Source: Lachnoclostridium sp. An169 (GTDB taxonomy: Bacteria; Bacillota; Clostridia; Lachnospirales; Lachnospiraceae). Taken from it: 64,000 nt of DNA. A program made the position numbers and the translations under genes. Location of the stretch: contig NZ_NFKT01000006.1 of NCBI RefSeq assembly GCF_002160525.1, positions 62,001-126,000 of the forward strand, given 5' to 3'. Of the stretch, positions 4,633 through 42,941 are shown piece after piece; the stretch's first letter is position 1; every line of letters begins with the position of its first letter. The notes beneath the pieces were generated by a model. That model made no database searches, was not told the origin of the DNA, and saw only the letters and a program-made list of their open reading frames with translations.

Positions 4633-7089
4633 ATGCCGGGAAGAAAGTTACAGAAGAGTACAGAAGAAACGAGAGACAGAAGGCTTCCGACGACGCGCTA
4701 CAATCCGGATTACCGGAGCGGTCTTACCACACAGCAGGTGCAGGAGCACCGGCTTCACGGATGGACGAACCGCTCTGTGGATCCGCCGTCGAAGACCGTG
4801 CAGGAGATTGTCAGGGAGAACGTATTCACCTATTTCAACCTGATCTTTGCCATTCTGGCGGTCCTTCTGATTGTGGCAGGCTCGTTCAGGGATCTGACGT
4901 TCCTGCCCATTATCATAGCGAATACACTGATCGGTATCGGGCAGGAGGTGCGGGCAAAGCAGGTACTGGATAATCTGACCATGCTGAATGCGCCTCACGC
5001 TACGGTTGTGCGTGACGGGAAGAAGTCTGTTGTGGATGCGGAGGATCTGGTCATCGATGACATTGTGATCTTTAAGGCGGGAAACCAGGTCTGCGCAGAT
5101 GCGGTTGTCTGCGCGGGCGAGGTCCAGGTGAACGAGTCTCTCCTGACCGGTGAGGCGGATGAGATTACGAAGCGCAAAGGTGCAAAGCTCATGTCCGGAA
5201 GTTTTATTGTCTCCGGACAGTGCCATGCACGTCTGGATAAGGTCGGGGAAGACTCCTATATCTCGAAACTGACTCTTCAGGCAAAGGAGATGCAGGAGGG
5301 GGAGCAGTCGGAGATGATCCGTTCTCTGGACAAACTGGTCAAGTGGGTCGGTATTGCTATCATCCCCATCGGGCTGATCCTCTTTTCCCAGGCATATTTC
5401 CTGCAGGATGAGACATTCCGCTCCAGCATCACCTCCATGGTGGCGGCAGTGATCGGCATGATCCCCGAGGGACTTTACCTTCTGGCAAGTGTGGCACTGG
5501 CAGTCAGCTCTGTCCGTCTTGCCCGGAAGAAAGTACTTCTCCACGATATGAAGTGTATTGAGACTCTGGCGAGGGTAGATGTACTCTGTGTGGACAAGAC
5601 CGGTACGATCACGGAAAATACCATGAAAGTGCAGAAGGTCATAGAGACGGAGGAATATGATTCTGCAGAAATGCCTCCGCTGAACGAGATGATCGGCGAT
5701 TTCGCCGCAGCCATGACGCGGGACAACATCACCATGGCGGCTGTGAAGGAATATTTTACAGCGGCTTCCGGAAAAAAAGCAGTTTCAAAAACCGGATTTT
5801 CCTCAGCTACAAAATACAGCAGCGTCACTTTTGAAGACGGGGTCTGTGTGATGGGCGCTCCGGAATTTGTGTTAAAGGAAAACTACGGGAACTATCAGGA
5901 GAAGATCACAGAACTGGCGGCTACCGGCGCCCGGGTCCTTGTGTTCGGGACTTACGACGGCGTAGCGGACGGCAAGCCTCTGAAAAAGCCGGTTACTCCG
6001 CTGGGATACATTCTTCTCGCCAATCCGATCCGGGAAGCGGCTCAGGAAACTTTCCGCTATTTTGCAGAGCAGGGCGTGGAGGTCAAAGTTATCTCCGGAG
6101 ATAATCCGCTGACAGTATCAAGAGTTGCCTCACAGGCGGGGATTGAGAATGCAGACAGATATGTGGATGCTTCACAGCTGGATGACGGGACGATCGAGGA
6201 CGCTGTGCTGAATAATACGGTGTTCGGGCGCGTGACTCCGGACCAGAAGCGGAAATTCGTGCGGATTCTAAAGGATGCGGGACATACGGTGGCTATGACG
6301 GGAGACGGAGTCAACGATGTGCTTGCCCTGAAGGATGCGGACTGCAGTATTGCCATGGCGTCGGGCAGCGAGGCTGCGGCGCAGGCGTCCCAGCTCGTCC
6401 TTCTGGAATCGGATTTTTCCTGTATGCCTAAAGTCGTGCTGGAGGGAAGACGGGTGGTCAACAACATTCAGCGTTCGGCAAGCCTGTTCCTGGTGAAAAA
6501 TATATTCTCCCTGCTGCTGAGCCTGCTGTCGCTTGTGTTCATGTTTACGTATCCGTTGGAGCCGTCCCAGATCTCACTGATCAGTATGTTCACCATCGGT
6601 GTGCCGGCCTTCTTCCTGGCCATGGAGCCCAACAAGAACATTATCCGGGGCCATTTCCTTACCAATGTGTTCCTCAAGGCGCTTCCGGCGGCAATCACAG
6701 ACGCACTGGCAGTTGGGGCGCTGGTAAAGTTCGGGGAGACGTTCGGCGTGGATTCTGCGGATATCTCTGTGGCAGCCACCATGCTTCTGGCAATTGTGGG
6801 ATTCATGATCCTCTATAAGATCAGTGCCCCGATGAATGTGGTGAGAACAGTGATCCTGGGCGGATGCATTGCAGGGCTGATTTTCTGCAGCATCTTCTTA
6901 AATGACCTGTTTGCCATCACGGGAATGACCAGAGAATGTGTGATGCTGTTCGTTGTCTTTGCCATCGCCACAGAGCCGGTACTCCGGTATCTGACGCTCC
7001 TGGTGGGGAAGCTCCGGGAGCTTTATGTGAAGCTTAAGACAGAGGGAAAGGCAAAGATGTCAGAAGGGAAATTTGACTTTTTCGCATAA
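4633..7089 (+). CDS. HAD-IC family cation-translocating P-type ATPase (CtpE-like)
   Basis: An 818-residue integral membrane cation pump. It has a TGEA actuator loop (the family more often has TGES), IPEGL in helix 4, the phosphorylation motif DKTGT near residue 321 and GDGVND near residue 557. The overall shape, with a short nucleotide-binding domain and about ten helices, resembles the CtpE-type calcium/magnesium ATPases rather than the P2A pump at the window start. The ribosome-binding site before ATG 4633 is weak (GGAAG), and a stable hairpin lies just upstream, so translation may be controlled. A strong terminator follows at 7107. Substrate is not settled by sequence. Confidence 0.88.
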   Translation: MPGRKLQKSTEETRDRRLPTTRYNPDYRSGLTTQQVQEHRLHGWTNRSVDPPSKTVQEIVRENVFTYFNLIFAILAVLLIVAGSFRDLTFLPIIIANTLIGIGQEVRAKQVLDNLTMLNAPHATVVRDGKKSVVDAEDLVIDDIVIFKAGNQVCADAVVCAGEVQVNESLLTGEADEITKRKGAKLMSGSFIVSGQCHARLDKVGEDSYISKLTLQAKEMQEGEQSEMIRSLDKLVKWVGIAIIPIGLILFSQAYFLQDETFRSSITSMVAAVIGMIPEGLYLLASVALAVSSVRLARKKVLLHDMKCIETLARVDVLCVDKTGTITENTMKVQKVIETEEYDSAEMPPLNEMIGDFAAAMTRDNITMAAVKEYFTAASGKKAVSKTGFSSATKYSSVTFEDGVCVMGAPEFVLKENYGNYQEKITELAATGARVLVFGTYDGVADGKPLKKPVTPLGYILLANPIREAAQETFRYFAEQGVEVKVISGDNPLTVSRVASQAGIENADRYVDASQLDDGTIEDAVLNNTVFGRVTPDQKRKFVRILKDAGHTVAMTGDGVNDVLALKDADCSIAMASGSEAAAQASQLVLLESDFSCMPKVVLEGRRVVNNIQRSASLFLVKNIFSLLLSLLSLVFMFTYPLEPSQISLISMFTIGVPAFFLAMEPNKNIIRGHFLTNVFLKALPAAITDALAVGALVKFGETFGVDSADISVAATMLLAIVGFMILYKISAPMNVVRTVILGGCIAGLIFCSIFLNDLFAITGMTRECVMLFVVFAIATEPVLRYLTLLVGKLRELYVKLKTEGKAKMSEGKFDFFA

Positions 7090-35183: not shown

Positions 35184-36437
35184 ATGCCCTACAATGAACT
35201 TCTCAAAAATTTCAGCAAGATCCGCGATTACATGCGGGATTTCTACATTTACGGCTTCCGCACCCGTTCTGATTTCGGCGGGAAGATCAAAAGCGCGCGA
35301 AGCTACGACAATGAGCGCCGCCGGGTGGAGAGCTGGCTGGGCGGCGTTATGTCATTCCGGCGGGAGGCAGCGGGAAAGAGTGTGTTTCTGTCCGTGGACA
35401 ACCGCACGGTTCCTCACAATCCCCTTTATCGGGCGTTCCGGACGAAAAGTTTTACAGACAATGACATTATGCTTCATTTTTACATACTGGATATCCTGTC
35501 GGATGGAGAGGCGCTGTCTTTCCGGAAGATCGCGGACCGGATTGCAGGGGAATATTTGTCTTATTTTGATGCGGCAGAACCGCCGGATGACTCTACCGTG
35601 CGCAACAAGCTGAAGGAATATATCGCGCTTGGTTTGTTGAAGATGGAGCGCAAAGGCCGGGAAATGCTCTATTCAATAAATCAGGAAAAATGGAGTCCGA
35701 AAGCCTGGCAAGACGCCCTGGCGTTTGCTTCCGAGGCAATGCCTCTGGGGGTGGTCGGTTCCTTTCTTCTTGACCGGTATGAGAAGAACCCGGAGTATTT
35801 CAGCTTCAAGCACCACTATCTGTTCGGCGCACTGGATGCGGAGATCCTTGAGGAACTGATGCTGTGCCGGAGGGGGCGAAGGCGTGCAGAGATTACTTTC
35901 CGGGCAAGGAGGAGTGAAAAGGATATGCAGGCAGAAGTTTTTCCGCTGAGGATTTATGTCAGCACCCGCACCGGGCGGGAGAATCTTCTTGCCTATAATT
36001 ATCAGATCAGAAGACCGGGCATGTACCGGTTGGATCACATCCGGAAAGTGAAGGCGCTTGATTCGGAACCCGACTATGAAAGACTGGAGAGAGCAGGACG
36101 AAGTTTTGCAGAATATCTCTGGGGCACTTCATCCGGACCGGAAGGCAGCCGGGAGACCGAACACGTAGAGATGACACTGTACGTGGGAAAAGAGGAGCGT
36201 TTCATCGTGGACCGGCTGGAACGGGAGAAGAGAAACGGAACTGTGAGCAGGCTGGATGAAACCACGTATCTATACCAGACCGATGTCTATGACGCCCAGG
36301 AGATGCTTCCGTGGATCCGTACATTTACCGGGCGGATTATCCGTCTGGAATGTTCCAACGATTCAGTTGTCAGACGGTTTTATGACGATTATGCTCAGAT
36401 GCAGCAAATGTATGAAACGGAAGCGGCAGATATATAA
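35184..36437 (+). CDS. WYL domain-containing regulator 1
   Basis: 417 residues. A winged-helix-like region (DIMLHFYILDILSDGEALSF, about residues 92-111) lies in the N-terminal half. The WYL-type sensor follows at about 240-310 (EVFPLRIYVSTRTGRENLLAYN) with a C-terminal WCX-like extension. WYL proteins often bind nucleic acids or nucleotides and regulate defence or RNA-repair genes. The GGAGGTACCCC leader gives a strong start. It is followed by a second, divergent WYL protein, and both lie just upstream of DUF2828-rtcB. The pair probably controls that locus; this is inference from position. Confidence 0.83.
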   Translation: MPYNELLKNFSKIRDYMRDFYIYGFRTRSDFGGKIKSARSYDNERRRVESWLGGVMSFRREAAGKSVFLSVDNRTVPHNPLYRAFRTKSFTDNDIMLHFYILDILSDGEALSFRKIADRIAGEYLSYFDAAEPPDDSTVRNKLKEYIALGLLKMERKGREMLYSINQEKWSPKAWQDALAFASEAMPLGVVGSFLLDRYEKNPEYFSFKHHYLFGALDAEILEELMLCRRGRRRAEITFRARRSEKDMQAEVFPLRIYVSTRTGRENLLAYNYQIRRPGMYRLDHIRKVKALDSEPDYERLERAGRSFAEYLWGTSSGPEGSRETEHVEMTLYVGKEERFIVDRLEREKRNGTVSRLDETTYLYQTDVYDAQEMLPWIRTFTGRIIRLECSNDSVVRRFYDDYAQMQQMYETEAADI

Positions 36438-36465
36438 AGCGGGAAATGAAACGGAGGTGATTCCC

Positions 36466-37374
36466 ATGGTGTTTCATGAAATATACGGGACCTATTACCA
36501 GACAGTTTCCGATATTCTGAAGGAGGCAGTGCAGGGAGAGATAACCGCTGAAAAAATCCGCCGGATCATCCGCGACAGAGCTTTTGAGGAGAGCAGTATC
36601 ACAATCCCCCAGGCGCTGACAGACCAGTGGCACATTCTGACCAGTGACGGAAGAACACCGATCCGACATGTACCCCGGCTGCCGCTGACAGATCTTCAGA
36701 AGATGTGGATGAAAGCTCTCCTTCTGGATCCGAGGATCCGTCTGTTTGATCCGCCGCAGGATGAACTGGAGGATGTGGATCCTCTCTTTGAACCGGATTT
36801 CTTTTTCTGTTATGACCGGTATTCCGACGGGGATCCTTTTGAGGAGGAAGAATACATAGAACATTTCCGCCTGGTTCTTCTTGCTCTCCGGGAAAAAAGA
36901 AAGATGGAGATCGTGTTCCGCGGGAAGCAGGGAAGGCACAGACAGGTATATATCCCGGACCGGCTGGAGTACTCTTCCAAGGATGACAAGTTCCGGCTGG
37001 CCGCCCATACAGAGGGGCATGTTCCCTATATGATCAATCTGGCACGGATCCGGCAGATTGCCCTTCTGGAGGAGGTAAAGCCGGATGAAGCAGAGGCTCC
37101 CCCGGAGAAGAAAGATATGGTCATCATGGAGCTGACGGACGAGCGCAACTCCCTGGAACGTGCTATGCTTCATTTTTCAGATCTGGAAAAGGAAACGGTA
37201 AAACTGGATGATCTACATTACCGGATTACCCTTTCCTACCGGAGGGAGGATGAAACCGAGCTGCTGATCCGCATCCTCTCTTTCGGCCCGACAATCAAAG
37301 TGACGGCTCCGGATTCTTTTATCCGCCTGATCCGTCAGAGACTGAACAAACAGAAAAGTTACGGACTTAAGTGA
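36466..37374 (+). CDS. WYL domain-containing regulator 2
   Basis: 302 residues from ATG 36466, six bases after GGAGGTG; a longer frame back to 36256 overlaps the first WYL gene without an RBS. The N-terminal ~140 residues carry a conserved acidic segment (FDPPQDELEDVDPLFEPDFF), then the WYL core (about 145-200, KRKMEIVFRGKQGRHRQVYI) and the C-terminal extension. No obvious winged helix is seen, so it may act as the sensor partner of WYL 1. Its stop codon lies inside the terminator hairpin at 37354. Confidence 0.8.
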   Translation: MVFHEIYGTYYQTVSDILKEAVQGEITAEKIRRIIRDRAFEESSITIPQALTDQWHILTSDGRTPIRHVPRLPLTDLQKMWMKALLLDPRIRLFDPPQDELEDVDPLFEPDFFFCYDRYSDGDPFEEEEYIEHFRLVLLALREKRKMEIVFRGKQGRHRQVYIPDRLEYSSKDDKFRLAAHTEGHVPYMINLARIRQIALLEEVKPDEAEAPPEKKDMVIMELTDERNSLERAMLHFSDLEKETVKLDDLHYRITLSYRREDETELLIRILSFGPTIKVTAPDSFIRLIRQRLNKQKSYGLK

Positions 37375-37392
37375 GAGTTCGTAACTTTTTTT
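37354..37392 (+). terminator. Terminator overlapping the end of WYL 2
   Basis: AAAAGTTACGGACT (37354-37367) pairs with AGTTCGTAACTTTT (37376-37389), one G-U pair, 8-base loop, continuing into a T-run to 37392. It ends the WYL transcript, so the downstream RNA and DUF2828 gene need their own promoter. Confidence 0.85.
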
Positions 37393-37394
37393 CC

Positions 37395-37423
37395 ATGATA
37401 AGTCCCTTTTTAGCTGCTACAAT
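37395..37423 (+). promoter_or_regulatory. Extended -10 promoter for the RNA/DUF2828 transcript
   Basis: ATGATA (37395-37400, four of six to TTGACA), a 17-base spacer, and TACAAT (37418-37423) with an extended-10 TGC directly before it. The predicted +1 is A37430, the first base of the closing stem of the RNA described next. Confidence 0.65.
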
Positions 37424-37429
37424 GAAGTC

Positions 37430-37530
37430 ATCCCGAAAGGTACCGACAGCAGAAATAAGATTCAGGAAGATTATGGAATGTCTGCCGGTTATACCGCAGA
37501 GGAAAACGAAACGGTACCTTGTCACGGGAT
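37430..37530 (+). ncRNA. Candidate Y-RNA-like structured RNA upstream of DUF2828
   Basis: About 101 nt whose ends pair. ATCCCG (37430-37435) pairs with CGGGAT (37525-37530). A 1x4 internal loop (A / GTCA) follows, then AAGGTACCG (37437-37445) pairs with CGGTACCTT (37512-37520). An inner hairpin TCTG-C-CGGT-TAT-ACCG-CAGA lies at 37481-37500. Known Y RNAs have exactly this plan: paired ends, a lower stem broken by a small bulge that Ro60 binds, and an inner variable module. The 5' strand (CCCGAAAGGU) recalls the Y-RNA UCCGAAGGU strand, but the match is partial. No terminator lies between it and the DUF2828 start at 37563, so it may be processed from, or act within, that mRNA. A riboswitch-like leader is the main alternative. 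Confidence 0.55.
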
Positions 37531-37562
37531 AACGGAAAAAGAGCAGAAGAGGAGGAGTTTTG

Positions 37563-39080
37563 ATGTTGAACAGTCTGAAAAAAGAAGCGGGAATAACAAG
37601 AACAGAAAACGGGGCGGCGACATACCTGTCCACCGGATCCGAATGTCTGGATCTGTTTGCAGCAGCCGGAGCCCTCCGCTCTGCATCAGAAGAAGATATG
37701 ATCCGCCGTTTTATCCGTGCTTATGCCGAGGATGCTGCACTTGCGGTAAAAATACTGTTTTTTGCCAGAGATATCCGGGGCGGGCTTGGCGAGAGAAGAA
37801 CGTTCCGCGTGATATTCCGCTGGATGGCTGACCACGAGCCGGAGTCCGTCCGCAGGAATATTCCATGGGTTGCAGATTACGGAAGATTTGACGACCTGCT
37901 GGTTCTGTTGGGAACGGCGTGTGAACCGGATATGGTGTCCTACATAAAAGAACAGCTGAAAAATGACCTGGAGGTGCTGGAAGGAAACGGTCAGGTTTCC
38001 CTGCTTGGCAAATGGCTGCCCTCTGTAAATGCATCCTGCCGCAATACGGTAAAAACAGCAAAGAAACTTGCCCGGCTCCTGGGAATGAGCGAGGCAGAAT
38101 ACCGGAAAACATTGACAGTATTGCGCGCACGGATCCGGATTATTGAAAATAATCTCCGGGAGAAGGATTATACATTTGATTATGAGAAACAGCCGTCGAA
38201 AGCGCTGTACAAATATCGGAAGGCGTTTCTGCGAAACGACCGGGAGAGGTATGTCCAGTTCCTGGAAAAAGCGTCGGAAACATCCGGAACCATGCACACA
38301 GGCACACTCACACCGTATGATGTGATATCCCCGTTGATTTCTGCGTACGTTGGAACGGCATTTTGGGAAGAAAAGCGGCCGGAACCGGTATTTTCAGAAG
38401 AAGAGCGCCGTGCCATGGATGTGACGTGGAATGCGTTGGAAGATTTTACCGATGATGGAACAGGAAAAAGCCGGAACAGGAATGCCCTGGCTGTTGTGGA
38501 CGGTTCCGGTTCCATGTACTGGGGAGGAAAACCCCTCCCGGCGGCTGTGGCACAGTCGCTTGGAATTTATTTTGCCGAGCACTGCAAAGGTGTGTTTCAC
38601 AATCATTTTATCACGTTTGGAGCCAGACCGCAGCTGGTTGAGGTAAAAGGAAGGGACATTGTGGAAAAAGTGCGCTACTGTATGCAGTTTGACGACTGCA
38701 GCAATACGGATCTTATGAAGGTCTTTGAACTTCTGATCCGGACGGCGGTAAAATACCGGATTCCGAAAGAAGAGATGCCTGCAAGACTGTACATCATTTC
38801 AGATATGGAATTTGACTGCTGTCAGAATGTTTCCGTGACGAATTTCCAGGCTGCCCGGGAGCTGTTCCGGGAACATGGATATCAGATCCCGCAGATTGTT
38901 TTCTGGAATGTGCAGAGCCGGAACATTCAGCAGCCTGTCAGGGAGAATGAACAGGGCGCGGTACTGGTATCCGGGTGCAGTCCGCAGATCTTCGGCCTGC
39001 TGAAAAATGACCGGCTGGATCCCCGGCATTTTATGCTACAGGTGCTTTTGTCTGAGCGGTATGAGAAAATTACGGCATAA
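37563..39080 (+). CDS. DUF2828 family protein (Ro60/TROVE-like helical domain plus vWA)
   Basis: 505 residues. The N-terminal ~290 residues are helical, with RDIRGGLGERRTFRVIFRW near residue 68 and a following YGRFDDLL, as in DUF2828 proteins. The C-terminal half is a von Willebrand A domain with an intact MIDAS motif DGSGS (near residue 315), the ITFGARP strand, SDMEFD near 419 and PQIVFWNV near 444. The same order (helical ring plus vWA MIDAS) is found in Ro60, the RNA-quality-control protein that binds Y RNAs. It lies 33 bases after a structured RNA and 19 bases before rtcB, so a role in handling damaged or structured RNA is likely; this is inference. Start ATG 37563 follows GGAGGAG. Confidence 0.8.
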   Translation: MLNSLKKEAGITRTENGAATYLSTGSECLDLFAAAGALRSASEEDMIRRFIRAYAEDAALAVKILFFARDIRGGLGERRTFRVIFRWMADHEPESVRRNIPWVADYGRFDDLLVLLGTACEPDMVSYIKEQLKNDLEVLEGNGQVSLLGKWLPSVNASCRNTVKTAKKLARLLGMSEAEYRKTLTVLRARIRIIENNLREKDYTFDYEKQPSKALYKYRKAFLRNDRERYVQFLEKASETSGTMHTGTLTPYDVISPLISAYVGTAFWEEKRPEPVFSEEERRAMDVTWNALEDFTDDGTGKSRNRNALAVVDGSGSMYWGGKPLPAAVAQSLGIYFAEHCKGVFHNHFITFGARPQLVEVKGRDIVEKVRYCMQFDDCSNTDLMKVFELLIRTAVKYRIPKEEMPARLYIISDMEFDCCQNVSVTNFQAARELFREHGYQIPQIVFWNVQSRNIQQPVRENEQGAVLVSGCSPQIFGLLKNDRLDPRHFMLQVLLSERYEKITA

Positions 39081-39099
39081 AGTCAGAAAGGGAAAAATC

Positions 39100-40314
39100 A
39101 TGTTTGAGATAAAAGGGAAAGTAAACACTGCCCTCTGCTATGCGTCCCTGGTGGAAGAGGAGGCAGTGGAGCAGATCCGCCGTATGTGCGATTATCCCAT
39201 AACGGAGGGGTCGCGGATCCGGATTATGCCGGATGTACATGCCGGAAAGGGATGCACCATCGGTACTACGATGACGGTTCGGGACAAAGTTGTGCCAAAT
39301 GTTGTCGGCGTGGACATCGGATGTGGGATGTACACGGTGAAACTGGCGGAAAAAGAGATAGATTTTGAAAAACTGGACGAGGCGGCGCACTTCATCCCCT
39401 CCGGGAAAAAGGTATGGGAAGGAAGACAGGAGCGGTTTGATCTGCAGGAGCTTTGCTGCTACCGGTATCTGAAAGATTCCAAAAGACTTCAGCGGAGCCT
39501 GGGGACTCTCGGGGGCGGCAATCATTTCATCGAGGTAGACCAGGCTTCCGACGGGACGAAATATCTGGTGATCCATTCCGGCAGCAGGAATCTGGGAAAA
39601 CAGGTGGCGGAGCTGTACCAGAAGCTTGCCATAGATCTGGATAAGGGAATCGGCGAGTATCTCGAAGCCAGAGAGGAACTTATCCGTACCTATAAAGAGC
39701 AGGGGAGAAGAAAAGAGATCCAGAACGCCTTAAAAGAGTTGAAATGGGATCAGGAGCAGAAGCAGTCAGAGATTCCGGAAGACCTCTGTTTCCTTTCCGG
39801 AAAATATATGGAGGAATACCTGCATGACGTGGAGATCTGCCAGAGATTTGCCGCGAGGAACCGGGAGAAGATGGCGGAGATTCTCCTCTCACGGACCGGG
39901 CTTCATGCAGTGGAGGCGGAGGCGTTTCATACAATCCACAACTACATTGACACAGAGGAGATGATCCTGCGGAAAGGCGCAATCGCAGCCCATGCCGGTG
40001 AGAAAGTACTGATCCCCGTCAACATGCGCGACGGTTCCGTACTTGCTGTGGGAAGGGGGAATCCGGAGTGGAACTACTCTGCACCTCATGGGGCAGGAAG
40101 AGTGATGTCGCGGACGAAAGCGAAAGAGACACTGGACATGGAGCAGTACCGGGAGATGATGGAGGGAATCTATACTACATCTGTTAATGAGAAGACACTG
40201 GACGAGGCGCCCATGGCATATAAGGCGCTGGGGGACATTATTGATGTGATCCATGAGGCTGTGGATGTAATCGAGGTACTGAAACCGGTTTATAATTTCA
40301 AGGCATCAGACTGA
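39100..40314 (+). CDS. rtcB: RNA-splicing ligase RtcB
   Basis: A 404-residue GTP- and Mn2+-dependent ligase joining 2',3'-cyclic phosphate (or 3'-phosphate) and 5'-OH RNA ends. Metal-binding landmarks are present: PDVHAGKGC near residue 45, GVDIGCGM near 70, HSGSRNLG near 158, and APHGAGRVMSR near 330, whose histidine is the expected guanylylation site (SHGAGR in E. coli). ATG 39100 follows GAAAGGG; the longer frame from 39007 lies inside the upstream gene. No RtcA cyclase, archease or sigma-54 RtcR gene is nearby; instead it sits with DUF2828, WYL proteins and an AAA ATPase. Confidence 0.95.
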   Translation: MFEIKGKVNTALCYASLVEEEAVEQIRRMCDYPITEGSRIRIMPDVHAGKGCTIGTTMTVRDKVVPNVVGVDIGCGMYTVKLAEKEIDFEKLDEAAHFIPSGKKVWEGRQERFDLQELCCYRYLKDSKRLQRSLGTLGGGNHFIEVDQASDGTKYLVIHSGSRNLGKQVAELYQKLAIDLDKGIGEYLEAREELIRTYKEQGRRKEIQNALKELKWDQEQKQSEIPEDLCFLSGKYMEEYLHDVEICQRFAARNREKMAEILLSRTGLHAVEAEAFHTIHNYIDTEEMILRKGAIAAHAGEKVLIPVNMRDGSVLAVGRGNPEWNYSAPHGAGRVMSRTKAKETLDMEQYREMMEGIYTTSVNEKTLDEAPMAYKALGDIIDVIHEAVDVIEVLKPVYNFKASD

Positions 40315-40338
40315 AAGGTTTTTCGGAACTAAATAGAA

Positions 40339-40344
40339 TATAAT
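40339..40344 (+). promoter_or_regulatory. -10 box of the second structured RNA
   Basis: A perfect TATAAT lies in the rtcB-AAA gap. Its expected +1, seven bases downstream, is A40351, the first base of a 15-bp closing stem. No good -35 is seen, so an activator may be needed. Confidence 0.5.
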
Positions 40345-40350
40345 TGTTAT

Positions 40351-40439
40351 AAGAGCCTGTTATGTGATAGAATAGGTGTGGCAGTGAGGAGAAAGATTTT
40401 TCTCCTGCTGTCATAACATGAATTACATAACAGGCTCTT
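40351..40439 (+). ncRNA. Candidate end-paired small RNA between rtcB and the AAA gene
   Basis: About 89 nt. AAGAGCCTGTTATGT (40351-40365) pairs perfectly over 15 bp with ACATAACAGGCTCTT (40425-40439), followed by TTT. Inside are an 11/9-nt internal loop, an 8-bp stem (40377-40384 with 40408-40415, G-U pairs included), a 2x1 bulge and an 8-bp stem AGGAGAAA/TTTCTCCT closed by GATT. The transcript would start and end exactly at the stem. The CTCTTT of the 3' arm can also pair with AAAGAG just downstream (40446-40451), suggesting a switch. Y-RNA-like sRNA, attenuator and MITE-like insertion are the three readings; the first two fit the -10 placement better. Confidence 0.55.
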
Positions 40440-40475
40440 TTACGGAAAGAGAATAAGAAAACAGGGAGGAAATTT

Positions 40476-41960
40476 ATGCCGGTTTACGACTTTAACAATA
40501 CACCGGAGCCGTCGAAAGAGGCTCAGTGTACGTATGAAATATTTTTTACCAGTGAGCATCAGGCGTCGGCGGAGCATCCGATTCTGGTTCTGGACAACAG
40601 TGCCGGAGCATTGCGGCATCACACCAACGGGATATTTAGCAATCCCATACGAAAGACTGCATTTGAATGTAAAAGTGAGGAGGGCACGGTAAGCGCGGAT
40701 ATCCGGAAGATTGATGCAAGGTTCGTGAGCCTTTTAAAATGGCTCGGTGAAAACCACATCAATGTGCGGCTCTCCGGAGCGGACATGCCGGACGGATACG
40801 CGGTCTACAAGATCCGCGAGACGGCTTTCGGTACAGGCTCAAAGCTTTCGGCGGAGGATGGATTTCTGCAGTATATGATTGAGCGTCTGCTCTCAAGCGA
40901 CGCCCCGCCGGAAGAACTGCCGGACGAGGAAGAAGAGGAGAGCGGCGACCGGATGAAGATCACAAGCATCCAGAGCATTACGGATTTCCTCAACTGTGCG
41001 GGAAGAACTCTGCCTGACAACATCCGCCTCTGGGCCAGGAGAAATCTGGCAGTAGCCCGCTCCAATGAAGTGTCGGCGGAGGAGAGACGTCATGCTCAGA
41101 GAGCCCTTTCCATTATGCTGAACATTCAGTGGAAGGGCAATTATTTCCCGCCGGTTGACCCGGATGAGGCGCGCAGGATTCTTGACGAGGAGCTGTACGG
41201 GATGGAGCGGGTGAAACAGCGGATTATCGAGACGATTATCCAGATCAACCGGACCCATACGCTTCCTGCTTACGGACTGCTGCTTATCGGTCCTGCCGGG
41301 ACGGGAAAATCACAGATTGCCTATGCGGTGGCGCGGATTCTGAAGCTGCCCTGGACGACGCTGGACATGAGTTCCATCAGTGATCCGGAACAGCTGACCG
41401 GAAGCTCCCGGATCTATGCCAACGCCAAGCCGGGGATCATTATGGATGCGTTTTCCATGGCGGGAGAGTCCAACCTGGTGTTTATCATCAATGAACTGGA
41501 CAAGGCTTCTTCGGGAAAAGAACACGGGAATCCCGCGGATGTGCTCCTGACGCTGCTTGACAATCTCGGATTTACCGACAATTATATCGAATGCATGATT
41601 CCCACGGTGGGTGTCTATCCGATTGCCACGGCCAACGACAAAGACCAGATCAGCGCTCCGCTTATGTCGCGTTTTGCCGTGATTGAGATCCCGGATTATA
41701 CTGTGGAGGAGAAGAAAGTCATTTTCTCCAGATATGCGCTTCCGAAAGTGCTGGGAAGGATCGGCATGCGGGAGAACGAGTGCACGCTGACAGAAGACGG
41801 GCTTGATGCTGTGATAGAACTTCACAGAAATACAAGCGGGATCCGTGACCTCGAGCAGGCTGCTGAACATCTTGCGGCAAATGCACTGTACCAGATCGAG
41901 GTAAAACATGTGAAGAAAGTGGTGTTTGACCGGAAGATGGTGCAGGAGCTGTTAGGCTGA
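40476..41960 (+). CDS. Lon-like AAA ATPase without protease domain
   Basis: 494 residues. The N-terminal ~160 residues are unassigned, ending in an acidic run. A helical segment follows, then DEELYGMERVKQRIIETI, the typical Lon lead-in, and the AAA core: Walker A GPAGTGKS near residue 272, Walker B-like VFIINELDKA near 333, sensor-1 ATAND near 386 and an arginine finger in PLMSRF. No Lon peptidase (Ser-Lys dyad) follows, and the Walker B has IINE rather than LLDE. Likely a remodelling ATPase acting on the RtcB/DUF2828 machinery or its RNP; this is inference from position. GGGAGGAAA precedes the start. Confidence 0.82.
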   Translation: MPVYDFNNTPEPSKEAQCTYEIFFTSEHQASAEHPILVLDNSAGALRHHTNGIFSNPIRKTAFECKSEEGTVSADIRKIDARFVSLLKWLGENHINVRLSGADMPDGYAVYKIRETAFGTGSKLSAEDGFLQYMIERLLSSDAPPEELPDEEEEESGDRMKITSIQSITDFLNCAGRTLPDNIRLWARRNLAVARSNEVSAEERRHAQRALSIMLNIQWKGNYFPPVDPDEARRILDEELYGMERVKQRIIETIIQINRTHTLPAYGLLLIGPAGTGKSQIAYAVARILKLPWTTLDMSSISDPEQLTGSSRIYANAKPGIIMDAFSMAGESNLVFIINELDKASSGKEHGNPADVLLTLLDNLGFTDNYIECMIPTVGVYPIATANDKDQISAPLMSRFAVIEIPDYTVEEKKVIFSRYALPKVLGRIGMRENECTLTEDGLDAVIELHRNTSGIRDLEQAAEHLAANALYQIEVKHVKKVVFDRKMVQELLG

Positions 41961-42011
41961 AGTTTAAAATAGCAAATGAAGATAGTAATAGAATCAGAGA
42001 AGGAGAAAAAA

Positions 42012-42941
42012 ATGAAAATCGCAGTAACTTATGACAATGGAAATGTATTTCAGCATTTTGGAAGAACGGAGTTTTTCAAAGTATACGAAGTTGAGGACAA
42101 TAAGATTGTTTCCAGTGAGATAATTGGTTCCAACGGCACCGGACACGGAGCTCTGGCCGGGCTTCTGGCGGACCAGTCTGTGGATGTGCTGATCTGCGGC
42201 GGTATCGGCGGCGGAGCCCAGGCAGCTCTCGCTGAGGCGGGGGTAGAACTGTGTGCCGGGGCACAGGGGAATACGGACGAGGCAGTAGAAGCCTACCTGA
42301 AAGGGGAACTGGTATCTTCCGGAGCGAACTGTGATCATCATCACGGGGAAGGACACTCCTGCGGGGATCATGAGGACGGACACGGCTGTGGAGGCCATGG
42401 AGAGGGACATTCCTGCGGAGGACACGGAGACGGACACTCCTGCGGCGGTCATGGGGAAGATCACTCCTGCGGAGAGAATAGCGGAGAAAACGACAGCTCC
42501 CACGCAGCCCTGACAGGACGCAATGTGGGAAAAACGTGCCGTACCCATTACAGAGGTACATTTAATGACGGCACACAGTTTGACTCTTCCTATGACCGCG
42601 GAGAGCCGCTGGAGTTCGTCTGCGGTGCCGGTCAGATGATCCGCGGGTTTGACGCTGCGGTGGCTGACATGGAAGTGGGGCAGGTAGTGGATGTTCATCT
42701 GATGCCGGAGGAGGCTTACGGCATGCCGGATCCCAATGCGGTCTTTACAGTAGAGATCGCGCAGCTTCCGGGCTCGGAGGATCTGACAGTGGGGCAGCAG
42801 GTCTATCTGTCCAACCAGTACGGACAGCCTTTCCCGGTCAAGGTAACGGCAAAGGAAGAGAAGACAATCACCTTTGACGCCAACCATGAGATGGCAGGAA
42901 AAGAGCTGAACTTCCGCATTGAACTGGTGGAAGTGAAATAG
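42012..42941 (+). CDS. NifX/NifB-like domain fused through a His/Cys/Gly-rich linker to an FKBP-type prolyl isomerase
   Basis: 309 residues from ATG 42012 (RBS AAGGAG). Residues 1-105 match the dinitrogenase Fe-Mo cofactor-binding (NifX/NafY) fold: FQHFGRTEFFKVYEVE, then GHGALAGLL and CGGIGGGAQ. Residues 108-155 are a metal-binding stretch built of repeats like GHSCGGHGEG. Residues about 173-309 are an FKBP domain with the SlyD-style IF insertion (FDSSYDRGEPLEFVCGAG, PEEAYGMPDPNAVFTVE). SlyD proteins carry His/Cys-rich tails for nickel; here the metal region sits in the middle. Probably a metal-carrying chaperone. No nif genes are in the window. Confidence 0.88.
   Translation: MKIAVTYDNGNVFQHFGRTEFFKVYEVEDNKIVSSEIIGSNGTGHGALAGLLADQSVDVLICGGIGGGAQAALAEAGVELCAGAQGNTDEAVEAYLKGELVSSGANCDHHHGEGHSCGDHEDGHGCGGHGEGHSCGGHGDGHSCGGHGEDHSCGENSGENDSSHAALTGRNVGKTCRTHYRGTFNDGTQFDSSYDRGEPLEFVCGAGQMIRGFDAAVADMEVGQVVDVHLMPEEAYGMPDPNAVFTVEIAQLPGSEDLTVGQQVYLSNQYGQPFPVKVTAKEEKTITFDANHEMAGKELNFRIELVEVK

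Follow-up and report, generated by a model that had tools for sequence, protein, structure and literature searches.

A divergent Ro60-type ribonucleoprotein is probably encoded with the RNA ligase RtcB in a WYL-DUF2828 locus

The closest described systems are the ribonucleoproteins (RNPs) of bacterial Ro60 (Rsr), which is encoded in an operon with YrlA/YrlB RNAs and RtcBA, for example in Salmonella, under the control of RtcR (extracts of PMC7790460 and PMC8394870). According to a 2015 review, about 5% of sequenced bacterial genomes encode Ro60, and no Y RNA candidates were then known in plants or fungi (extract of PMC4726728); a Vibrio jumbo phage carries a Ro60-related protein, and phages with YrlA have been reported (extract of PMC7765460). 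Among WYL regulators, the PafBC heterodimer is activated by single-stranded DNA in the damage response (extract of PMC11804915).

The locus analysed here lies in a 64,000-nucleotide stretch of the Lachnoclostridium sp. An169 genome (the window), and we consider that it probably encodes a divergent Ro60-type RNP coupled to RNA repair, the RNAs upstream of DUF2828 being its Y RNAs. The gene order given by the preliminary description was borne out, all features lying on the + strand: two WYL genes, a terminator-like hairpin, a promoter-like site, an RNA element, DUF2828, rtcB, a second hairpin and an AAA ATPase gene. The terminator-like hairpin (37354..37392, across the WYL2 stop and followed by a T run) was recognised by eye and is absent from the program-made list. 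The promoter-like site (37395..37423, ATGATA-17-TACAAT, its second hexamer preceded by TG) is a consensus match of a kind abundant in this area (19 sites found versus 8.4 expected).

The DUF2828 protein (37563..39080, +; the ORF opens with TTG at 37560, and the ATG at 37563 fits the relatives) combines a helical-repeat part with a vWA domain carrying a DGSGSM MIDAS motif. PF11443 (E 3.2e-34) and PF25043 (E 3.1e-41) were the only Pfam families to reach E<=0.1, TROVE (PF05731) giving no match at that threshold. The best 11 Foldseek matches to its AlphaFold2 model (pLDDT 83.8) were all Ro60/TROVE structures (top E 1.7e-7), and the first ten VIA-align rows were all Ro60 (Z 12.8-16.2; best 1yvp_A, Z 16.2, rmsd 4.9, 405 aligned), a vWA domain following the Ro60 rows at Z 10.2; the predicted model thus superposes on Ro60 across both the helical-repeat ring and the vWA domain. 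Profile comparison by hhalign gave 15% with only four TROVE sequences, and with a larger TROVE set 98.3% (E 1.8e-14, 397 columns, spanning both domains) versus 0.2% for the reversed decoy, indicating common descent; the DUF2828 profile run against PDB chain sequences yielded chance-level matches only (best E 0.24). By profile homology and predicted fold, DUF2828 is therefore a divergent Ro60 homologue, as the preliminary description had proposed, and by analogy with Ro60 it would bind a Y RNA on its outer surface and the ends of misfolded RNAs in its ring.

An RNA family is encoded beside DUF2828, in agreement with the earlier claim that the protein has its own RNA. Its members share a stem of 7 bp (AAGRYRC/GYRYCUU), an unpaired ACAGCAA, a variable module, in many cases shaped as a tRNA-like cloverleaf (acceptor, D-arm, anticodon-like arm and T-arm, in that order), and a terminal CUUGU; no counterpart of the family was found in Rfam 15. 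RNAs with an exactly pairing stem lie within 900 nt upstream of DUF2828 in 83 of 110 bacterial loci and are absent by the strict pattern from the remaining 27/110. The 5' motif occurs at 172 sites in 93/110 loci, 147 of these sites having an exact 4-nt complement before CTTG, against a mean of 30 and a maximum of 48 in 1000 permutations; with a stricter motif, 129/140 sites pair near DUF2828 versus 0/40 sampled from genomes that lack DUF2828. This pairing test is independent of the covariance model (R1). The structure, evaluated on 37 sequences, is paired at 95.2%, five covariation measures exceeding all 500 shuffles and all slides, and every helix, the short acceptor included, shows compensatory change. 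A tRNA-like T-loop is present on the coding strand in 67 of 109 upstream regions and on the other strand in 2 (shuffles: mean 4.9, maximum 10). The 110-locus set includes L040 and leaves out the duplicates L049 and L054, whereas the 109-locus counts also omit L040; L040, L044, L049, L054 and L092 belong neither to the training set of R1 nor to its held-out set of 72 loci, held-out meaning that no element of these loci entered the training alignment, some being close relatives of training loci. The matches of R1 over the held-out loci, given below, also lie mostly upstream of DUF2828 and support the link of the family to this gene.

The first of the two intergenic RNAs of the preliminary description is a real member of this family (37435..37523, +). 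It has the stem AAGGTAC/GTACCTT, an unpaired ACAGCA, a short inner hairpin and CTTGTC, and was the sole covariance-model match in the 64 kb up to E 10, with a modest score (23.9 bits, E 0.0061) for what is a short form lacking the tRNA-like module and the T-loop. The 5' pattern occurs at six sites in the genome, with the partner strand only at the window's own site; Rfam searches over the window, at gathering thresholds and at E<=10, returned nothing usable.

RtcB (39100..40314, +; the ORF opens at 39007, the start being inferred from relatives) matches PF01139 with E 6.8e-60, and its active-site motifs appear intact; the genome holds two RtcB genes. Within 5 kb of DUF2828, RtcB is present in 64/110 loci and absent in 46/110, and of the 56 loci flanked by 5 kb or more on each side 19 lack it, indicating that RtcB is a frequent but not obligatory partner. 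The nucleotidyltransferase RlaP (PF10127) lies within 5 kb in 10/110 loci, in some relatives directly behind RtcB; no copy was found near the window's DUF2828 gene. No RtcA was found anywhere in the genome (98.5% complete), extending the earlier statement that none lies nearby. The scanned neighbours included no adjacent RtcR: they are WYL proteins, and weak RtcR matches were confined to the AAA protein's ATPase part.

Both WYL calls, WYL1 (35184..36437, +) and WYL2 (36466..37374, +; the ORF opens at 36256, and relatives of about 302 aa suggest the start used here), the latter a WYL/WCX regulator, were below the Pfam cut-offs (WYL E 0.0025; WCX E 0.0023). The PADLOC profiles were clearer (2.7e-8, 3.8e-9); a WYL gene lies within 5 kb of DUF2828 in 86/110 loci, WYL1 homologues among them in many. 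The likeness to PafBC, in which two WYL regulators act jointly in a damage response, lies in the tandem arrangement of the two WYL genes; a comparable ligand is putative for the window pair.

The neighbourhood survey supports a widely conserved WYL-DUF2828-RtcB set with an upstream RNA, but the AAA gene and the second RNA, counted by the preliminary description among the parts of the system, do not recur. The AAA protein resembles Lon over its ATPase part (TIGR00763, E 8.1e-52, limited to residues 179-478), and its gene lies near DUF2828 in 2/110 loci, window included. Close homologues (55-84% identity) occur in at least 18 further genomes of the host's order; of these, G277 alone encodes DUF2828, on the contig of its AAA gene but at a distance of about 184 kb (read by hand). 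The seven of these loci examined, one of which ends at a contig edge, contained no cassette genes over flanks of up to 1.5 kb. The AAA gene thus behaves independently of DUF2828 and was rejected as a core part, and with it the proposed particle remodeller. The hairpin behind rtcB (40351..40441, +) is strong (-49 kcal/mol, z -8.9) and ends in a T run; it is present in single copy in the genome, and no counterpart was seen behind rtcB in the other loci inspected by eye. It was rejected as an RNA of the system and is probably the operon terminator.

DUF2828 was found in 31/295 genomes of the host's order, and TROVE in 4/291 of the host's class. The family also matched in 681 of 50,697 phage records; PHROG 850, 'RNA-binding protein', is the same family as the window DUF2828 (E 6e-123), and some members in phages already carry the annotation 'Ro-like RNA binding protein'. 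Among 84 DUF2828 loci of phages and viruses, the paired RNA is present in 39 and absent by the strict pattern in 45. The DUF2828 locus of Bacillus phage FADO (host given in its record: B. subtilis BEST7003) has three paired copies of the motif; three of four named phage records showed no such site, only weaker model matches with tRNAs among them, and none of the four records examined carried an annotation of the RNA family. RtcB-centred repair systems were reportedly surveyed by Burroughs and Aravind in 2016. Our literature search found DUF2828 named only in four papers on plants and no description of the linked RNA. The view of the system as largely undescribed consequently holds for the RNA, but less so for the phage proteins already annotated as Ro-like and for the RtcB-centred systems surveyed before.

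In the scheme we infer, for the substrates as for the order of events, DUF2828, predicted to fold like Ro60 into a helical-repeat ring closed by the vWA/MIDAS domain, is the protein of the particle, and the RNA just upstream and its relatives (one per locus, or two to four) would be its Y RNAs. DUF2828 would probably grip these RNAs by the 7-bp stem at their base, with its invariant ACAGC bulge and CUUG end, and the inner module, in many members a tRNA-like cloverleaf, would be the effector end. RtcB would join the 2',3'-cyclic-phosphate and 5'-OH RNA ends that the RNP selects or shields, after RlaP, in those relatives that have it, had restored lost nucleotides; the WYL regulators, replacing RtcR, may switch the operon on through nucleic-acid damage products, as PafBC is switched on by ssDNA.

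The same RNA elements could instead be cis-acting leaders of the DUF2828 mRNA, to which DUF2828 or a tRNA-binding factor binds, controlling its own translation or termination, with no free Y-like RNA made. Position agrees with such a leader: over the 72 held-out loci the covariance model gave 107 matches at E<=0.01, of which 92 (55 loci) lie within 2 kb upstream of DUF2828 on the same strand, and 40/110 loci have two to four paired copies upstream, often close together. However, 6 of the 107 lie directly downstream and 9 elsewhere, some of these nine being tRNAs (R1 also fires on ordinary tRNAs, such as a tRNA-Trp in L302 at 28.7 bits, so that some of the 107 matches may be tRNAs); phage loci spread their copies over several kb, the window copy has its own promoter-like site ending 12 nt before it, and a simple operator would hardly account for a cloverleaf module. 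We regard the leader explanation as unlikely.

That the tRNA-like modules are decayed, functionless tRNA genes carried along with a mobile repair cassette appears very improbable to us, even though some modules are identified as tRNAs by ARAGORN and by the Rfam tRNA model, ordinary-looking tRNAs stand between the elements of L127, and the DUF2828 gene of Felixounavirus wV8 stands at the head of a tRNA array that includes two tRNA-like pseudogenes. Against decay, the modules sit inside an outer stem that covaries, keeps its ACAGC invariant and also encloses forms without a tRNA module, the compensatory changes extend to all helices, and the predicted anticodons differ widely between loci. We give hardly any credence to a plain damage operon in which DUF2828 serves as a vWA co-chaperone of the Lon-like AAA protein, in the MoxR-vWA style, the RNA being incidental: pairs of AAA and vWA chaperones are a known theme (extract of PMC7824862) and an AAA gene does follow in the window, but the rarity of that gene near DUF2828 and the AAA homologues encoded apart from the cassette, both described above, speak against such a partnership.

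With the Ro60-type RNP as the preferred reading, DUF2828 and its RNA family appear to be a second version of the Ro60-Y RNA pair, one that has been little described and is found in many gut bacteria and some large phages. We put forward only tentatively that the unpermuted cloverleaf mimics of this lineage are decoys and damage sensors: anticodon nucleases or other RNases would attack the mimic or an RNP-held tRNA, the WYL pair would read the fragments, RtcB (with RlaP) would mend them, and phages would carry the RNP as counter-defence. If DUF2828 is indeed a Ro60 that has RNAs of its own, existing counts greatly underestimate how common Ro-type RNPs are; such RNPs would also be frequently linked to RNA repair and accessible in phages of laboratory strains. 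The RNA family, through its ACAGCAA/CUUGU stem, offers a sequence handle that binding tests can use. Plants would gain a missing Ro60-type RNP if their DUF2828 proteins descend from this second lineage.

Compared with known RNAs, the family differs from tRNA in lacking a free 7-bp acceptor with a 3' end for CCA, the acceptor having three modelled pairs that continue into the outer stem. It resembles YrlA (RF02553) in its large stem joining the 5' and 3' ends around an inner tRNA-like domain with a T-loop, an architecture found in the family as a whole, the window copy having the stem without the T-loop. Four YrlA-like RNAs beside TROVE genes in the host's class have the permuted order T-arm, acceptor hairpin, D-arm, whereas the DUF2828-linked RNA is unpermuted and has the invariant ACAGC/CUUG stem; with the YrlA model the DUF2828-linked elements reached about 18 bits at best among the matches listed and the TROVE-gene RNAs 42-51 bits, both below the gathering score of 69 bits. 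With respect to the Rsr-YrlA-RtcBA operon, DUF2828 escapes detection by Pfam TROVE, its RNA is distinct from YrlA, the window genome has no RtcA and WYL regulators stand in RtcR's place, but both systems unite in one operon RtcB, a Ro60-fold protein (predicted for DUF2828) and an RNA that mimics tRNA and has a basal stem.

The locus in the window comprises five genes on the forward strand: the called genes WYL1 (35184-36437) and WYL2 (about 36466-37374), whose WYL matches are below the Pfam cut-off and whose assignment is backed by PADLOC WYL profiles and by their conserved position; DUF2828 (37563-39080; PF11443, E 3.2e-34; PF25043, E 3.1e-41) and RtcB (about 39100-40314; PF01139, E 6.8e-60), both well over the Pfam cut-off; and an AAA protein (40476-41960), residues 179-478 of which match the ATPase part of Lon, the protease part being absent. 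The genome carries a second RtcB gene elsewhere, and the lack of a neighbouring RtcA in the preliminary description extends to the entire genome. Downstream, 41976-42941 encodes an odd fusion protein that starts with a dinitrogenase iron-molybdenum cofactor domain, continues with a segment rich in His and Cys and ends with an FKBP domain.

DUF2828 is a remote homologue of Ro60, and the relation spans most of the protein, including the MIDAS motif (DGSGSM in an alignment of the window protein with 15 proteins from genomes of the same order). The Ro60 domain order initially proposed is borne out by the predicted structure (pLDDT 83.8, pTM 0.80), which superposes on Ro60. In Foldseek searches of solved structures with this model, the top 11 matches were all Ro60/TROVE proteins (best E 1.7e-7), with vWA-only proteins ranking behind them (E 4.8e-3 and worse); VIA-align of the same model placed Ro60 at ranks 1-10 (Z 12.8-16.2), followed by a vWA domain (Z 10.2), and aligned 405 residues with 1yvp_A at 4.9 Å and 11% identity. 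The profile comparison of 186 DUF2828 with 50 TROVE proteins reached 98.3% probability (E 1.8e-14, 397 columns spanning both domains; reversed decoy, 0.2%), an earlier one with four TROVE sequences having given 15%. Since the structure and profile matches run through both domains and the Pfam TROVE model does not match the window protein, the relation is remote yet extends over most of the protein.

The RNAs linked to DUF2828 constitute a new family. The tRNA T-loop motif was present 5' of DUF2828 on the coding strand in 67 of 109 loci and on the opposite strand in 2 (100 shuffles: mean 4.9, maximum 10); elsewhere between the genes of these loci, with tRNA clusters retained, it was present in 19/291 stretches on one strand and 13/291 on the other. 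Reading the sequences revealed a shared frame of the upstream elements: AAG-RYRC-NN-ACAGCAA, a module, and GYRY-CUUGU. When pairing was not required, the 5' motif occurred at 172 sites no more than 900 nt upstream of DUF2828 (93 of 110 loci). At 147 of these sites (83 loci), a CTTG lying 35-200 nt further on is preceded by the tetramer that exactly complements that of the motif; when the tetramers were permuted 1000 times, the count averaged 30 and never exceeded 48. Paired copies numbered one in 43 loci, two to four in 40 and none in 27. A stricter form of the motif was paired at 129/140 sites upstream of DUF2828 and at 0/40 control sites in genomes without DUF2828 (part of the strict-motif sites listed for such genomes); by a hand tally, it lies within 2 kb upstream of DUF2828 in 22 of the 31 DUF2828 genomes of the order. 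None of the 49 TROVE loci from viruses contained the 5' motif. In unpaired form, this motif (AAGRYRCNNACAGCAA) occurs in 83 of the 295 genomes of the order and, by eye, is commoner than a reversed control pattern even away from DUF2828, the 40 inspected sites having no partner strand.

Thirty-seven tRNA-like members, picked from 43 candidates with outer-stem pairing as one requirement, were aligned and the structure was drawn on the same alignment, the inner helices being no selection criterion. The outer stem was 100% paired, and compensatory changes were found in the short acceptor, D-arm, anticodon-like arm and T-arm. In total 95.2% of cells were paired, a figure favoured by the selection on outer-stem pairing and by drawing the structure on that alignment (slid structures, 35-48%); double changes affected 17/23 pairs, and no shuffle out of 500 reached any of five covariation measures. 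The covariance model built from this alignment gave 107 matches (E ≤ 0.01) in 72 loci contributing no training element, an impure count because ordinary tRNAs are also picked up (about 29 bits): 92 within 2 kb upstream of DUF2828 on the same strand (55 loci), 6 just downstream and 9 elsewhere. The tetramer pairing test is independent of this model.

The sole model match in the 64 kb of the window is 37435-37523 (23.9 bits, E 0.0061), starting 12 nt past the end of a promoter-like site and reading AAGGTAC, CGACAGCAG, inner hairpin, GTACCTTGTC. This element has no T-loop, its identification rests on the stem and bulge, and it misses the strict motif solely through its ACAGCAG ending; Rfam 15 returned nothing usable on the window. 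Two structured RNAs had been described, and the model retrieves the first; the second (40351-40441, between rtcB and the AAA gene; -49 kcal/mol, z -8.9) is a very stable single-copy hairpin exceeding the needs of a terminator. In another locus (L127), family elements upstream of DUF2828 are separated at 5289-5555 by two tRNAs of ordinary appearance (Asp, Glu).

Gene neighbourhoods were compared in 110 distinct DUF2828 loci (genomes of the order, further genomes representing the best 80 of at least 569 matches, and the window). Within 5 kb of DUF2828 there was a WYL gene in 86 loci, RtcB in 64, RlaP (the Pfam name of an RNA-repair nucleotidyltransferase) in 10 and the AAA gene in 2; the conservation of WYL genes and RtcB asked about at the outset was found, and the AAA protein drops out of the system. 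In the 56 loci flanked by 5 kb or more on each side, tallied before locus L040 was restored, RtcB was present in 37 and a WYL gene in 47. In 34 loci, many from Lachnospiraceae, DUF2828 is preceded by just one WYL protein, of a divergent type (36 genes, the representative over the Pfam WYL cut-off). According to the record titles of the best 80 of at least 569 matches, carriers include Lachnospiraceae, Oscillospiraceae and Acidaminococcus, as well as bins labelled Desulfovibrio, Synergistaceae and Chloroflexi, where binning errors are possible. Several loci have peculiarities of their own: rtcB split by about 2.4 kb with a 599-aa frame, possibly an intron or intein (L039, 4913-8687); a pair of DUF2828 genes separated by about 21 kb of the same contig, both preceded by motif sites (genome G249; L037, L038); and, 3' of rtcB, long near-perfect palindromes with ACGGTTCT...AGAACCGT that resemble dispersed repeats (L071, 4352-4430, which triggers many microRNA models in Rfam; and L077).

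The DUF2828 family is also present in 681 of 50,697 phage records (PHROG 850, 'RNA-binding protein'). Among 84 phage and viral loci, including some near-duplicates, one or more paired RNAs on the strand of the gene were present in 39 and absent from 45; 71/108 motif sites were paired on the gene's strand and 0/4 on the other. Among four named records examined, Bacillus phage FADO alone had strict sites, and all three of them are paired; the records of the Mycobacterium, Listeria and wV8 phages had no strict sites and only weaker model matches, some at tRNAs. In the Listeria phage (L292, 3989-8870), DUF2828, an HD-domain protein, a tRNA splicing ligase starting 1.3 kb past DUF2828 and a NADAR protein form a phage repair module. 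In Felixounavirus wV8, DUF2828 precedes a tRNA array, in which two annotated tRNA-like pseudogenes (L294, 6042-6129 and 7355-7425) might be members of the RNA family.

In Rsr/YrlA, Rsr is held by the basal stem of YrlA, and PNPase is bound by the tRNA-like end (PMC8394870). By analogy, DUF2828 would grip its RNA by the ACAGCAA/CUUGU stem, and the tRNA-like end would recruit a tRNA-handling partner or mimic one. Cleaved RNAs would be joined by RtcB, and the WYL proteins would switch the operon on in response to a putative ligand; PafBC is a WYL heterodimer activated by ssDNA (PMC11804915), and in Salmonella damaged tRNAs, arising after DNA damage among other causes, activate the Rsr-YrlA-RtcBA operon (PMC7790460). 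Neither the AAA protein nor the hairpin 3' of rtcB is needed in this scheme.

The preliminary description of a largely undescribed system stands for the RNA, of which no description was found in the searches of Rfam 15 and of open-licence papers; the type of system (a Ro60-type protein, a tRNA-mimic RNA and RtcB) is already known, and the protein is partly known as Ro-like from phage annotation, several mycobacteriophage records bearing the label 'Ro-like RNA binding protein'. The 2016 survey of Burroughs and Aravind, reportedly on RtcB-centred repair systems, is the likeliest to mention the DUF2828-RtcB neighbourhood. RlaP occurs across several repair systems (PMC6514570). Rfam 15 sees merely the tRNA-like interior of the family (RF00005, 33.6-50.9 bits), in seven members (L043, L066 twice, L067, L089, L111 twice) from 16 listings giving most loci once. 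The YrlA model (RF02553) scored 42-51 bits in the regions preceding the four TROVE genes found in the class (4 of 291 genomes) and about 18 bits at best, among the matches listed, at DUF2828-linked elements. Both kinds of RNA have a basal stem, but the YrlA-like RNAs are permuted (T-arm, acceptor hairpin, D-arm), whereas those of DUF2828 retain the tRNA order. In vertebrates, the site for Ro60 consists of a bulged helix of seven base pairs (PMC4726728); the stem of the DUF2828 RNAs also has seven pairs and an asymmetric bulge, a parallel that is suggestive only.
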